Of a stretch of DNA of 64,000 bases, positions 57,783-62,286 are shown one piece after another. Source of the stretch: Bradyrhizobium diazoefficiens (lineage in GTDB: Bacteria > Pseudomonadota > Alphaproteobacteria > Rhizobiales > Xanthobacteraceae); assembly GCF_016616235.1 (NCBI RefSeq), contig NZ_CP067100.1, positions 1,795,001-1,859,000 of the forward strand, written 5' to 3'. The notes beneath the pieces were generated by a model. That model was not told the origin of the DNA. It was given only the letters and a program-made list of their open reading frames with translations, and ran no database searches. Every line of letters begins with the position of its first letter. The stretch's first letter is position 1. The position numbers and the translations under genes were made by a program.

Positions 57783-57999
57783 GCTGGTCGTTAAGTCATG
57801 TTGCTGACGCAATCTCTGTCTTAACGGGTGACAACTTAAAACACTGCGTGGGAATCACTCTGGTTCGCACCACGGTTCCATAGCCAAGGGGTTGGCTCGA
57901 ATCCGCAAAACATCGGTGCAAGCGTCATGAACGCCTCCGCGTTCGCTTGCCCGTTTGCGGTGTCGGGAACCGGAAGACGAAAAAATCACAGGAGTTATG
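57783..57999. other. Intergenic region with a stem-loop
   Basis: About 217 bp. A nested stem-loop, GCAAGCG...CGCTTGC enclosing AACGC-CTCC-GCGTT, occurs at about 57918-57950, just upstream of the RlpA-like gene. Otherwise nothing clear. Confidence 0.4.
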
Positions 58000-58491
58000 A
58001 TGTTGTTCCGCTCGAGCGCCGCACTTTGCGGCGCCCTGCTTACGCTTGCCGTTTCTGTTACCGTTGCTCGAGGTGAAACGCGTGGGGATCACCCGAGCGC
58101 CCTCGTCGATGCCGCCTCCGGGAATGCGGTCGTCGGCGCTGCATCCATGTACAATCCGTTCAAGCCCGGCAAGGAGGAGGGCGGTCCAAGCACAGCCTCC
58201 GGCGAGCGTTACGATCCCTCCGACTGGGCGGCTGCCATCAAGACGACCTTGCGCAGGAAATTTGGTGGGGTCCCATTTGGCGAGAGGCCGAAATTTGCCC
58301 TGGTCGAGGCCGTCGGCAAGAAGGTCATCGTCAAGATCAACGACGTGGGACCACTCAGGCCCGGCCGCATCATCGATTTCAACGAGCGCACGATGCGCCA
58401 TTTCGATCCCAGCCTGGAGCGCGGCGTCATCAAGGACGTCAAGGTCAGCCCGCTTTCGGGGGACAATTGGACACTGGGGCCGGTGGGCTGA
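58000..58491 (+). CDS. RlpA-like double-psi-beta-barrel lipoprotein/lytic transglycosylase-like
   Basis: About 163 residues. Signal peptide about 1-24 (FRSSAALCGALLTLAVSVTVAR); then the DPBB domain with GAASMYNPF, TASGERYDPSDWAAAIKTTL, IVKINDVGPLRPGRIIDFNERTMRHF, matching RlpA except that NDRGP reads NDVGP. The Cys in the signal (LCGALL) is not in an ideal lipobox. RlpA cuts naked glycan strands at the septum; the Asp of the NDxGP motif is present. ATG 58000 (AGGAG six bases upstream) or 57997. Confidence 0.8.
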   Translation: MLFRSSAALCGALLTLAVSVTVARGETRGDHPSALVDAASGNAVVGAASMYNPFKPGKEEGGPSTASGERYDPSDWAAAIKTTLRRKFGGVPFGERPKFALVEAVGKKVIVKINDVGPLRPGRIIDFNERTMRHFDPSLERGVIKDVKVSPLSGDNWTLGPVG

Positions 58492-58817: not shown

Positions 58818-59139
58818 GCTTTGCGCCTTCTGGAATAGCAGCCGGGCTTATCGGCGCATGGCCGACATCGCGGCGGCGCTGGCTAATCGCGGCTTGTGAC
58901 CTATAGCGGACGGTTCGCGCATCTCGTTCTGCCCCTACATGACTTCCTAGCCGATGGGCTTTCTGTCGGCCACGCGGGCGCTCGTTCACTCGCAAGTATG
59001 AAGATCATCCGATCGCGTTCCTAATCTGCAGGAACCAAGAGGATGCCTGTGCGTTGCCGGGCTGCTCTTTGGTGTGACCCCGTCGAATCCGGCTCGCCTC
59101 TGCTGGGTGGCCGGACGGAGGCCGGGCGAGGTAGCGCAG
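58818..59139. other. Intergenic region upstream of the LuxR-like gene
   Basis: About 320 bp with no supported gene. The upper part is somewhat A/T-richer; possible promoters for the flanking divergent genes lie here but are not resolved. In-frame readings from 59074 lack a ribosome site, whereas GAGG at about 59127-59130 favours GTG 59140 for the LuxR-like gene. Confidence 0.4.
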
Positions 59140-61233
59140 GTGCTTCCTATCCGACTATTGATAGCAGATCGTCGTCCGATCGTCCTGCAGGGTTTTGCCA
59201 CGCTACTCGCGGCGGAGCGTGACTTCGAGATTGTCGCATCATGCAGCAATGGCGCGGGCTGCCTCGAAGCAGTGCGGAGGTTGACGCCAGATGTCGCCCT
59301 TGTGGAGGACGGATTTTCTGACGTGACGGCTTCTGAAATGCTCGCCACCGTTACTTCGGAAGACCTTCCCACGCGCCTGGTATTCTACACAGCATCGGTT
59401 GCGCGAGGCGATATCGCTGACGCGGTCGCCGCGGGTGCCTGCACCGCGATTCCGATGCGCGAGGAGCCCGAAACGTTGTTGCAGTCCCTGAGGCTGGTGG
59501 CACCGCCCGCGCATCGGGCGGTTGCCCGCAATCCCGGCAATGGCGCGTCCGGCGAAAAAGGACTTGCAGGGTTGACGGACCTGGAGCGCAAGATCATGCG
59601 CCTGGTCGCCTGCGGTATGTCGAACAAGGAGATCGCTCGCCAGCTCAAGGTCGCCCCAGGCACCATCAAGGCGCGAGTTGATCGCATATCTGCGCAGTTT
59701 GAGATCAAAAACCGGACCGAGCTCGCAACGTTCGCTCTGTCGCGCCTTTACGGCGGGATCGGCGCGCTTGCAGCTCTGATCTGGGCGGCGCTGGACGACG
59801 TCCAACCCGTGAGCGCAGCTGATCATGCGCACGCCGATAGCCTTACGGTAGTGGCCGCAGACGACGCCGGCGCTGTCGTGACGATCAAAATCAGCCCTCA
59901 AAAAACGGCCGCTGCTTCGGGTAAGACGACCAAGGCCGTGAGTAAATCCGGTGGTGTGGAGAACTCTTTAGCTGATATTGCGGGGCGGTTCAGCAAGCTC
60001 ATCGAATCCCGCGCCGATATCGCCGCCAGCACGATCACACCGCCGACACTCAACGCCGCAAGGTCGGGCATCAGTGAGTTTGGCGCGTTTATGCTCATGA
60101 CGTTTGGAGTTTCGATCTACGAATTCCTTAACAGTGCTGCGCAGGCGTTCACTTACCGCGATGGCTTTGCGTCGGCTGCCGCAAATGGCACCAGCGAACT
60201 GGGCGCCTTTAATCCGCTTGGCAGCGCCGGCACGAACCCAACCGAGTCAGAGAACCTGGTCTGGCCTGATCCCGAAATCCGCCATGAATCATTCGTTTTC
60301 GAGGCTGGCCAAGGCGATACCATCGGCAGAAGCGACGAGCGTCAGATCATCGATGCAGCCGCAAGCGAACATGGCTTAGGTGCCGGCGGCAACCCTCACA
60401 TTGGATCCGGCGCCGTCGACGCTGCGATCGATCATGGCGGCTCCGGGCAGGCGGCCGCAACCAACGTGTCGGGGAATGCCGAACACGGCACAACACATGC
60501 GACCGCGGTAGATGGATCCAATGACGAGCAATCGCGCGCTGATTTGCATGTTTCGGAACAGGGCGCCGCAGCCGGTAACCCACATGCCGGGGACGGGCCG
60601 CCCGGACACGATTCGGATCATGGACAGTCGCAGCGCGATTTGCATGTTTCGAAAGAGGGTGCAGCAGCCAGTAAGCCACACGCCGAGGAGGGACCACCCG
60701 GACACGATTCGGACCATGGACAGCCGCAGCGTGATTTGCATGTCTCGGAACAGGACGCAGCAGCCGGTAAGCAGCACGCGAAGCACGACTCATCCGGACA
60801 CGAATCTGATCGCGGGCAATTGCATCGCGACTTACACGCTTCGGAGCAAGGTTCGTCAACTGCCGATCAGCATGCCGAGGACGATGCACAGAGTAGCCAT
60901 TTCAATTCCGGACACTCGCACGCTGACTTGCACAAGGCGTCCACGAGCGGATCTACAACTCAGCATGCGGGGCCGGGCCAGAATGCAACGGCAGCTGCGC
61001 CCCAGGTCGAAGATTCCTTTCATTTCAAGGATGACAGGGCAGAGATCAGAGCTTCAGAATACTCTGAGAACGGCCACAGACCGGATGCAGTGGAACATGC
61101 TCTGCACGATGCCGGACAAAATGGACTGGCGCCGATTCTGGATGCGGACCTGATTGGCCCTTCGCATGCCGAGCAAAGCGTCCCTGATCACGCAAGAGTT
61201 GAGCACCATCTGACGCATGATTTGTTTGTGTAG
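59140..61233 (+). CDS. LuxR/NarL-type regulator with degenerate receiver and His-rich repeat tail
   Basis: About 697 residues. Residues about 4-120 have a NarL-type receiver fold (IRLLIADRRPIVLQGFATLL), but the acidic pair reads D-R, Glu56 (LVED) takes the phospho-Asp position and the conserved Lys is missing (IPMRE). A LuxR helix-turn-helix follows (about 143-205: LTDLERKIMRLVACGMSNKEIARQL and APGTIKARVDRI). Then comes a short hydrophobic stretch (GGIGALAALIWAALD) that could touch or span the membrane. The remaining 470 residues are low-complexity, with five 32-residue His-rich repeats (DLHxSE...HA...GHxSDxGQ) at 60541-60964 or so. GTG 59140 is preferred. Confidence 0.8.
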   Translation: MLPIRLLIADRRPIVLQGFATLLAAERDFEIVASCSNGAGCLEAVRRLTPDVALVEDGFSDVTASEMLATVTSEDLPTRLVFYTASVARGDIADAVAAGACTAIPMREEPETLLQSLRLVAPPAHRAVARNPGNGASGEKGLAGLTDLERKIMRLVACGMSNKEIARQLKVAPGTIKARVDRISAQFEIKNRTELATFALSRLYGGIGALAALIWAALDDVQPVSAADHAHADSLTVVAADDAGAVVTIKISPQKTAAASGKTTKAVSKSGGVENSLADIAGRFSKLIESRADIAASTITPPTLNAARSGISEFGAFMLMTFGVSIYEFLNSAAQAFTYRDGFASAAANGTSELGAFNPLGSAGTNPTESENLVWPDPEIRHESFVFEAGQGDTIGRSDERQIIDAAASEHGLGAGGNPHIGSGAVDAAIDHGGSGQAAATNVSGNAEHGTTHATAVDGSNDEQSRADLHVSEQGAAAGNPHAGDGPPGHDSDHGQSQRDLHVSKEGAAASKPHAEEGPPGHDSDHGQPQRDLHVSEQDAAAGKQHAKHDSSGHESDRGQLHRDLHASEQGSSTADQHAEDDAQSSHFNSGHSHADLHKASTSGSTTQHAGPGQNATAAAPQVEDSFHFKDDRAEIRASEYSENGHRPDAVEHALHDAGQNGLAPILDADLIGPSHAEQSVPDHARVEHHLTHDLFV
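60541..61020 (+). repeat. Five tandem 96-bp repeats coding His-rich segments
   Basis: The GAYTTRCAY (Asp-Leu-His) anchor recurs at 60541, 60637, 60733, 60829 and 60925: exactly 96 bp, or 32 codons, each time. Copies 1-3 are most alike; 4 and 5 are degenerate. Each unit has about four to six histidines. Confidence 0.85.
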
Positions 61234-61419
61234 CTTACTCGACGCCTCACTAGCGTCGGTGCCGCGGCTTTGAGCGTTGCCGGCCGCGTCCGCCGTCTGC
61301 TGCCGACCAGGAGTTCGGCATTAACCATCATCCGCGGTTCCCCCCTGAGCGGCATCCCTTCGAAGTTTCTTAAATTTTGCTGGGTACCTCTTTTGGGCGG
61401 AGTGACCTGGGGAAAGAGC

Positions 61420-62286
61420 ATGGGTAAGCGGGCCAAACGTGGAAAGGCGGAGACGCTCGCACTACCCGCGGTCGCGAGAGTTGCGATTGGCGCAGTGGCC
61501 GTCGCCGTAGTGGGGTACGGTTTGCTGTCTCGTCCGGCGAGCGTGCAACCGTCACGGAAGCCGTCGGCGCCTGAAGCCCGGGCATCCTCAACGCCGGTTT
61601 ACGTCGCTCCAGTTCATGCATCAGCGCCAGCTCCGGCTCCGATTCCTCCTCCCGCCTCGGCCCCTCTGGTCGAACCACCAAAAGCCGACGCCGACGTTCC
61701 CGGAGCACTTGTCCGGCAGGTGGTTGACTACGCCAGCCACCAGGCGCCCGGCACCGTGATCATCGATACCAAGAACACGTTCCTTTATCTCGTCCTGAAC
61801 GACACGCAAGCGATGCGCTACGGCATCGGTGTTGGCCGCGAAGGTTTCGCATGGTCAGGCGAGCAGACCGTGGCGCGTAAAGCCGAATGGCCGGATTGGC
61901 GCCCGCCTGCGGAGATGGTCGGGCGTCAGCCTTATCTGCCGCGGTTCATGGCAGGCGGTCCCGGCAACCCGCTCGGCGCCCGGGCGATGTATCTGGGCGA
62001 GACCGAATATCGCATTCACGGCACCAACAAACCCGATACGATCGGCAAGCGGGTGTCGTCCGGCTGTATCCGGCTGACCAATGACGACGTCACGGATCTG
62101 TATGAGCGGGTGAAAGTCGGAGCCAAGGTGATCGTGCTGCCGGCAAATGCGGCCCGCCGGCCATCCCAGGGCGCGCCGACCGACGCCGCGTTCCGATTGC
62201 CTGACCCGGCATTGCCATCGAAGCGGCCGCTCGCGGCTAACGCGCAGATGCTGTCACCCGGACCGAAGATCGCCGAGGCGCAGTAA
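61420..62286 (+). CDS. L,D-transpeptidase (YkuD domain)
   Basis: A 288-residue exported or anchored cell-wall enzyme. A signal-anchor (about 18-40, ARVAIGAVAVAVVGYGLLS) leads into a Pro/Ala-rich linker (about 45-95) and the YkuD domain: TVIIDTKNTFLYLVLNDTQAMRYGIGVG, then the catalytic IHGTNKPDTIGKRVSSGCIRLTNDDV, with active Cys in SSGCIRL. It makes 3-3 peptidoglycan crosslinks or attaches proteins. ATG 61420 with GGGGAAAG upstream; the long reading from 61270 is unlikely. The end is Pro/Ala-rich and disordered. Confidence 0.93.
   Translation: MGKRAKRGKAETLALPAVARVAIGAVAVAVVGYGLLSRPASVQPSRKPSAPEARASSTPVYVAPVHASAPAPAPIPPPASAPLVEPPKADADVPGALVRQVVDYASHQAPGTVIIDTKNTFLYLVLNDTQAMRYGIGVGREGFAWSGEQTVARKAEWPDWRPPAEMVGRQPYLPRFMAGGPGNPLGARAMYLGETEYRIHGTNKPDTIGKRVSSGCIRLTNDDVTDLYERVKVGAKVIVLPANAARRPSQGAPTDAAFRLPDPALPSKRPLAANAQMLSPGPKIAEAQ

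Follow-up and report, generated by a model that had tools for sequence, protein, structure and literature searches.

The open reading frame at 59140..61233 of the window (the whole stretch of 64,000 nucleotides of Bradyrhizobium diazoefficiens DNA that was analysed) very probably encodes a chimera, in which a transcription regulator is joined at a hydrophobic segment to the body of a VCBS/RTX surface protein. The best overall explanation, to which we assign a probability of roughly 0.6, is a Bradyrhizobium chimera that would act as a membrane-tethered, phosphorylation-independent regulator. The 697 residues comprise, in this order, a pseudo-receiver, a LuxR-type DNA-binding domain, a hydrophobic helix, and a His-rich tail. 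In favour of the start at 59140, most aligned homologues begin at the equivalent Met. Homologous fusions occur in short forms, such as the window protein, and in long forms, the two being told apart by match length and frame length. The features are as follows.

59140..61233, + strand: whole gene, 697 residues, GTG start (a 719-residue frame if begun at the GTG at 59074)
59140..59499, + strand: pseudo-receiver, residues 1-120 (Response_reg 30.5 bits; alignment with NarL, 1a04; block pLDDT 69-93)
59569..59745, + strand: LuxR/GerE-type helix-turn-helix, residues 144-202 (GerE 49.1 bits; Foldseek matches to NarL, LiaR, and DesR)
59746..59805, + strand: hydrophobic helix, residues 203-222, marking the junction to the putative surface-protein body; possible membrane anchor (homology of the long forms to FecR-type proteins starts here)
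59836..59892, + strand: VCBS-like relic 1, residues 233-251 (region inside above-cut-off TIGR01965 matches of the relatives P0047, P0011, and P0105)
60064..60174, + strand: VCBS-like relic 2, residues 309-345 (residues 313-373 of P0074 match TIGR01965)
60292..60369, + strand: stretch like the entry to the RTX region of long forms, residues 385-410 (by eye against L044 and L047; no Pfam match)
60541..60828, + strand: three clear repeats of 32 residues (96 bp), DNA identity 72-85%
60829..60924, + strand: fourth repeat, diverged, DNA identity 53-57%
60925..61020, + strand: DLH anchor only, no further repeat, DNA identity 31-35%
61012..61029, + strand: DSFHFK motif, common to long and FecR-type proteins (F627 and F629 invariant in 62 rows)
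61219..61230, + strand: C-terminal DLFV, an acidic residue followed by three hydrophobic residues (ends of homologues)

A DNA-binding domain fused to a repeat tail had been proposed in the original prediction, and both were indeed found in one reading frame, with GerE well identified by Pfam (49.1 bits). Response_reg was barely above its cut-off (30.5 against 30.2 bits), and no Pfam match was obtained behind residue 200. The first 200 residues are closest by sequence to NarL (1a04, E = 3e-19), and the closest NCBIfam model, among the best 25 of 34 rows, was PRK10651 (93.9 bits against a cut-off of 250). AlphaFold2, run with 62 sequences, modelled the receiver and the helix-turn-helix domain (block pLDDT 69-93), with a continuous helix (residues 192-219) extending from the last helix of the DNA-binding domain into the hydrophobic segment. 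The model, of mean pLDDT 48, is good for residues 1-220 only; the tail is probably disordered, since its pLDDT is almost wholly below 50. The best Foldseek matches were full-length regulators of the NarL/FixJ family (LiaR, NarL, EvgA, VraR, and DesR), with target TM-scores of 0.4-0.6 for whole chains, and the receiver-only entry 3eul, with a target TM-score of 0.80-0.85.

The window protein has the receiver and GerE domains of NarL/FixJ regulators in the usual order and lacks the combination of a phosphorylatable Asp, an acidic pair, and a Lys. In the alignment with NarL, the phosphoacceptor Asp is matched by Glu56 and the Lys by Met106, and Arg11 falls within the acidic pair; these are the roles that we take the aligned NarL residues to have. 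Recognized by profile and devoid of the key residues, the domain is a pseudo-receiver. A census of the phosphoacceptor place, made by pattern rather than by alignment in 138 rows (120 listed homologues, including the window's own entry, and 18 fetched loci), gave Glu in 112, Ala in 9, Asp in 2, and Gly in 1, with 14 unread. Six stand-alone regulators were also read: five kept the Asp and the sixth, L055, had Glu. All six kept the Lys, their acidic pair already containing Arg or Cys. The Lys is also retained in long forms (L047 and L048, for example), and its change to Met was seen in short forms. Judged from the sequences, the change of the Asp is the only receiver change general to the fused forms. 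Since Arg in the acidic pair and the Lys are common to stand-alone regulators and long forms, and since L055 has Glu, the residue changes are not all tied to the fusion.

The window protein therefore resembles NarL/FixJ response regulators (NarL, 1a04) in the order and fold of receiver and helix-turn-helix and differs from them by the replacement of the Asp and Lys and by about 480 additional C-terminal residues. In aspartate-less receivers, Glu is said to be the commonest residue at the Asp place. It can mimic phosphorylation there in many regulators, but in some pseudo-receivers this explanation has been refuted; how pseudo-receivers are activated is termed a mystery (PMC12632262). The window protein shares with these receivers the Glu at the Asp place and a changed Lys place, but it is fused to a surface-protein body, for which the available portions of two papers have no counterpart (PMC12632262; PMC4395418).

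Proteins carrying the same tail behind other N-termini located the joint. A search with a tail profile matched 49 of 265 Bradyrhizobium genomes, and nine matches outside the regulator places were fetched (L084 to L092). Two carry the regulator (L084 and L085), four a FecR-like N-terminus (L086 to L089), and one a short N-terminus (L090); L091 and L092 are short pieces. FecR exceeded its cut-off of 24 bits in L087 (24.6) and L089 (28.6) and fell below it in L086 (14.4); L088 was assigned by eye and by its match to L086. BLASTP segments of the long forms L044 (from residue 213), L043 (225), and L046 (224) begin at residues 136-137 of L086, the start of the helix, as does a segment of only 23 residues of L047 (from residue 212). 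Residue 213 of L044 likewise begins at residue 147 of L087, the corresponding place. Between the window protein and L044, the match extends over residues 5-222 and so takes in the helix. Its own BLASTP match to L086 lies in the body, not the helix, and its residues 199-461 align at 30% with residues 903-1164 of L086, inside the cadherin-like/VCBS body of the latter. A third kind of protein (nine fetched) has no more than about 85 residues ahead of the same helix, the count starting at the stop codon upstream. No Pfam domain was detected before the helix in the six of these that were scanned, and the nine end with DLIV (six), DLNV (one), otherwise (one), or off the locus (one). Because the same helix and body also follow FecR domains and short N-termini, the body can be taken to start with the helix, to which three kinds of N-terminus are attached, the regulator among them.

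The FecR-type versions of the body lie at L086:914-5929, L087:590-4429, and L089:333-3980. A FecR-plus-linker query matched 262 of the 265 Bradyrhizobium genomes at E 1e-8, many of the matches probably being to FecR only. In L090 and L104 to L112, all from Bradyrhizobium, the helix has, by eye, the appearance of a late-placed signal or anchor segment, and A-x-A-A-D-P or a similar sequence often comes next.

The body itself was identified from the long forms. VCBS and Peptidase_M10_C were found in five of the six scanned (L043, L044, L046, L047, and L048), with TIGR01965, the NCBIfam model for VCBS, scoring 33 to 446 bits against a cut-off of 15.5. RTX was present in three of the six (L043, L044, and L048), and Cadherin_4 and Big_9 in L044. 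In the sixth, L050, none of VCBS, Peptidase_M10_C, RTX, or Cadherin_4/Big_9 was detected in Pfam or among the best 25 of 45 NCBIfam rows. The stretch between helix-turn-helix and repeats also matches VCBS in the short proteins P0047 (40.5 bits), P0074 (26.1), P0011 (22.5), and P0105 (20.1). These four of the five short proteins rescanned are above the cut-off in mid-protein, the exception being the window protein, for which no VCBS was seen among the best 25 of 34 NCBIfam rows, no VCBS-like or RTX match in Pfam, and no HemolysinCabind match up to E 5. Since VCBS still scores in four short relatives and is missing from the best 25 of 34 rows for the window protein, its gene seems to be a shortened member of the family, in which the VCBS part would have eroded and the RTX part been lost. 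The last 60 residues of the tail had been said to resemble VCBS-like proteins in composition only. This view has to be abandoned, as the tail aligns with VCBS-bearing long relatives and four of five short proteins exceed the VCBS cut-off. A second transmembrane segment followed by a signal-peptidase site was considered for residues 312-337 (hydrophobic, then A-x-A) and rejected, comparison with the long relatives identifying a degenerate VCBS repeat.

The C-terminal end is also shared. An acidic residue (Asp or Glu) followed by three residues that are hydrophobic or Thr ends 125 of the 138 rows; the other 13 include two near misses (P0011 and P0077), the rest being apparently stand-alone, shorter, cut, or frame-disrupted. 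In 62 rows, little or no variation is seen in DSFHFK and in several of the C-terminal His residues. The tails of L044, L047, and L049 have repeats, mostly of 33-34 residues, that share the GQSQRDLH core, along with a motif resembling DSFxFK and HDLIV at the C-terminus. The DLFV of the window protein has the acidic residue and three hydrophobic residues that mark type I-exported proteases, a motif dispensable for LipB according to the text available (PMC2642768). The window's genome harbors six type I HlyD genes above the cut-off. Among VCBS proteins, Bll3563 of B. diazoefficiens (3441 residues) has a suggested role in adhesion, as far as the available text goes (PMC6515984). The likeness to VCBS/RTX type I-secreted proteins as a class lies in the VCBS-type body of most long relatives scanned and, for the window protein, in the shared tail and C-terminal motif. 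In contrast to these secreted proteins, the window protein has a transcription regulator as its N-terminus and no RTX match.

The repeats had been described as exact 96-bp tandem units carrying DLHxSE five times at 32-codon spacing. The spacing is exact, with DLH at residues 468, 500, 532, 564, and 596 (bases 60541, 60637, 60733, 60829, and 60925), but the sequence is not: DNA identity is 85, 75, and 72% among units 1 to 3, dropping to 53-57% in unit 4 and to 31-35% in unit 5. Only units 1, 3, and 4 have DLHxSE itself; unit 2 reads DLHVSK and unit 5 DLHKAS. With 9-16% protein identity to the other units in addition to its low DNA identity, unit 5 is an anchor only. TRF reported 2.8 copies of 96 bp. 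At a lag of 96, the best 192-base stretch is 79% identical, against at most 41% at the same lag in 300 codon shuffles; the repeat is thus not due to chance.

The protein search returned at least 199 homologues after scoring part of its candidates. The best 120 were used, and all of those with an organism name were from Bradyrhizobium. A scan of genome contigs gave 30 loci, 27 from Bradyrhizobium and three from other bacteria that matched only within residues 4-202. At E 1e-50, 107 of 265 Bradyrhizobium genomes matched, two of them with stand-alone regulators only. The in-frame fusion was found in at least 105 of the 265 (about 40%): 37 with short forms and 77 with long forms, nine having both. 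This count omits second pieces of the same genes in G183 and G082, includes G095 as short despite an interrupted frame, and is a lower bound, the fusions L084 and L085 lying below the E 1e-50 threshold. Such a distribution rules out a frameshift or assembly artefact and disposes of the concern, raised with the original prediction, that the tail might be a separate gene joined by frameshift. In a midpoint-rooted tree of 44 N-termini, the short type formed one clade (25 rows, support 100/99). Whether short or long forms came first depends on a weak root (deepest forks 51/40); the VCBS relics in short forms point to loss. Short-type copies with apparently interrupted reading frames were observed in L035 (B. 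sacchari) and G095:C14, indicating that the short-type gene can be lost.

Among 391 genomes of the family, the regulator half matched 83 at E 1e-30. Eight of these were outside Bradyrhizobium, where the matches lie in stand-alone frames of 228-248 residues and stop at residues 200-203 of the query; no regulator fusion was found outside Bradyrhizobium in this set. FecR, helix, and linker together matched 70 of the 391 at E 1e-25, some matches covering helix and linker only. Eight of these 70 genomes belong to five genera outside Bradyrhizobium, and there the matches span FecR and helix. A stand-alone regulator lies 3-4 kb from the fused gene in six genomes (G185, G186, G205, G233, G245, and G261). 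Probably, then, a NarL/FixJ-type regulator was duplicated and came to stand where a type-I-secretion-like surface protein had its own N-terminus. The simplest history would be that the stand-alone gene was duplicated and fused to a neighbouring surface-protein gene in Bradyrhizobium, the Asp being lost before or after.

The window's own genome carries a stand-alone paralogue retaining Asp and Lys at L075:8993-9688 (5127064, 5127 kb). The ORF beside it, L075:7813-8685, has counterparts, identified by eye, near the stand-alone copies in L099 and L100. Proximity of this paralogue to a type I HlyD gene was considered as a clue and dropped, the two being about 14 kb apart.

Neighbours of the fused gene are mostly not conserved across loci, and no secretion gene or metal gene was found in the four neighbouring ORFs scanned. 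An RlpA-like (DPBB) ORF (window 57955-58491) and an L,D-transpeptidase gene (61270-62286) flank the region. The latter gene follows the fused gene in 5 of the 27 Bradyrhizobium loci (L016, L019, L020, L021, and L026), some loci being cut short, and none of the window gene's other neighbours was observed at the corresponding position in the 27. The L,D-transpeptidase gene was rejected as an operon clue.

Selection was assessed by Nei-Gojobori dN/dS, mainly in pairs of the window gene with L012, L013, L014, and L019; the segments are short and the pairs few, and values for the 23-residue linker and the last 17 residues are unstable. The ratio was 0.12-0.22 for the receiver, 0.27-0.36 for the helix-turn-helix, and 0.08-0.19 for the hydrophobic helix (20 codons), which had the lowest value in three of the four pairs. 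Farther along the gene, the VCBS relic gave 0.33-0.58, the middle 0.47-0.83, the repeats 0.33-0.50, and the C-terminal part 0.58-0.83, the helix-turn-helix and the repeats being about equal in two of the four pairs. Five further pairs gave 0.10-0.30 for receiver plus helix-turn-helix. In the four of them usable beyond residue 202 (L030/L037 is usable only up to that point), residues 203-345 gave 0.51-0.78, the part that follows 0.34-0.78, and the final 80 residues 0.25-1.18. Selection has clearly maintained the receiver and the helix, with weaker constraint on the middle and the end.

These values bear on an alternative in which the protein is a soluble cytoplasmic regulator and the tail a decaying remnant of the fusion, tolerated because it is disordered, so that only residues 1-220 matter. 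The tail pLDDT below 50, the higher dN in the tail (dN/dS of 0.33-0.83 against 0.12-0.36 for receiver and helix-turn-helix), and the lack of a VCBS-like or RTX Pfam match in the window protein are all consistent with such decay. However, the reading frame and C-terminal motif persist in 125 of 138 rows, DSFHFK and several C-terminal His residues hardly vary, the repeats are at 0.33-0.50, and the helix is the most constrained segment in most pairs. We consider a vestigial tail rather unlikely.

That the entire protein is exported by a type I system, with the regulator half as a passenger (for example as a DNA-binding part at the surface), appears improbable. The body and C-terminus are those of VCBS/RTX proteins, the genome has its six HlyD genes, and type I export relies on a C-terminal signal in the available text of one report (PMC3034196). 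Against this, a canonical regulator fold with dN/dS of 0.12-0.36 in receiver and helix-turn-helix is more than a mere passenger would seem to need, and FecR or short N-termini serve the same body without a regulator.

The His content underlay the proposal of a metal or pH sensor, in which His/Asp-rich repeats would bind Zn, Ni, Co, Cu, or protons and alter the activity of the regulator. In the window protein, the last 250 residues are 12.4% His. In 109 listed homologues, including the window's own entry, the median was 10% (6.8-14.4) in that stretch against 1% in the first 200 residues, and HHH occurs twice in the last 250 residues of all listed proteins of at least 550 residues. The corresponding range is 4.4-9.6% in 15 long forms and 5.2-10.4% in three FecR-type proteins. 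In the long forms L043 and L045, other, unrelated His-rich repeats of similar composition replace the DLH repeats, hinting that composition rather than sequence is kept. The tail of the window gene has no match at E 1 in other genes of the same genome. His richness is a property that travels with the surface-protein tail, whether the regulator is there or not, and, although the tail may bind metal or protons, metal sensing is not needed to explain it. The metal sensor, the least probable of the readings considered, was set aside as the main one for lack of support: the same kind of tail occurs on the three FecR-type proteins without regulator and on long forms, several with calcium-type RTX; the accompanying body domains are VCBS and calcium-type RTX; Cys is absent from the last 250 residues in 102 of the 111 proteins in a set that has the window protein twice and includes one long form; and the mostly unconserved surroundings offered no metal gene among the four ORFs scanned.

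We tentatively favour, at somewhat under even odds for the mechanism taken by itself, a membrane-tethered regulator independent of phosphorylation. The pseudo-receiver and LuxR domain would stay in the cytoplasm and regulate without phosphorylation, and the hydrophobic helix would tether them to the inner membrane. The tail would be extruded or held by the export route of the surface-protein relatives, and activity would be set by tethering, export, or release instead of by a kinase. Tethering is a proposal, not a result, because the hydropathy of the helix is borderline (19-residue mean of 1.49 in the window protein). In 99 relatives, the median of the best 17-residue hydropathy window was 1.57, the best window not always being the helix. 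A bolder version of the tethered regulator, which we regard as doubtful, is that, in more than one-third of the Bradyrhizobium genomes searched, one and the same polypeptide chain connects the chromosome with the outside of the cell. Its C-terminal part would be threaded outward, and its DNA-binding domain would directly sense whether the tail is exported or lost, the presence of calcium, or contact with a surface.

One-component membrane regulators of the ToxR/CadC type have a cytoplasmic DNA-binding domain, a membrane segment, and a C-terminal part beyond the membrane. The window protein may have the same topology (compare PMC9214523). It differs from ToxR/CadC by its LuxR-type helix-turn-helix and pseudo-receiver and by a C-terminal part that comes from a family of secreted type. 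The original prediction that no standard family has this architecture agrees with the literature searched: no published description of a regulator-VCBS/RTX fusion was found by title or start of abstract, in a coverage that leaves out most subscription journals.

The fusion indicates that a transcription regulator serves as the N-terminal domain of a surface-protein family, at a joint where other members have a FecR-like domain or a short leader instead, and it corrects a tempting annotation as a metal sensor. If the regulator is membrane-tethered, root-nodule bacteria would have a new way of coupling gene expression to the cell surface, and a testable mechanism of control would become available for pseudo-receivers.
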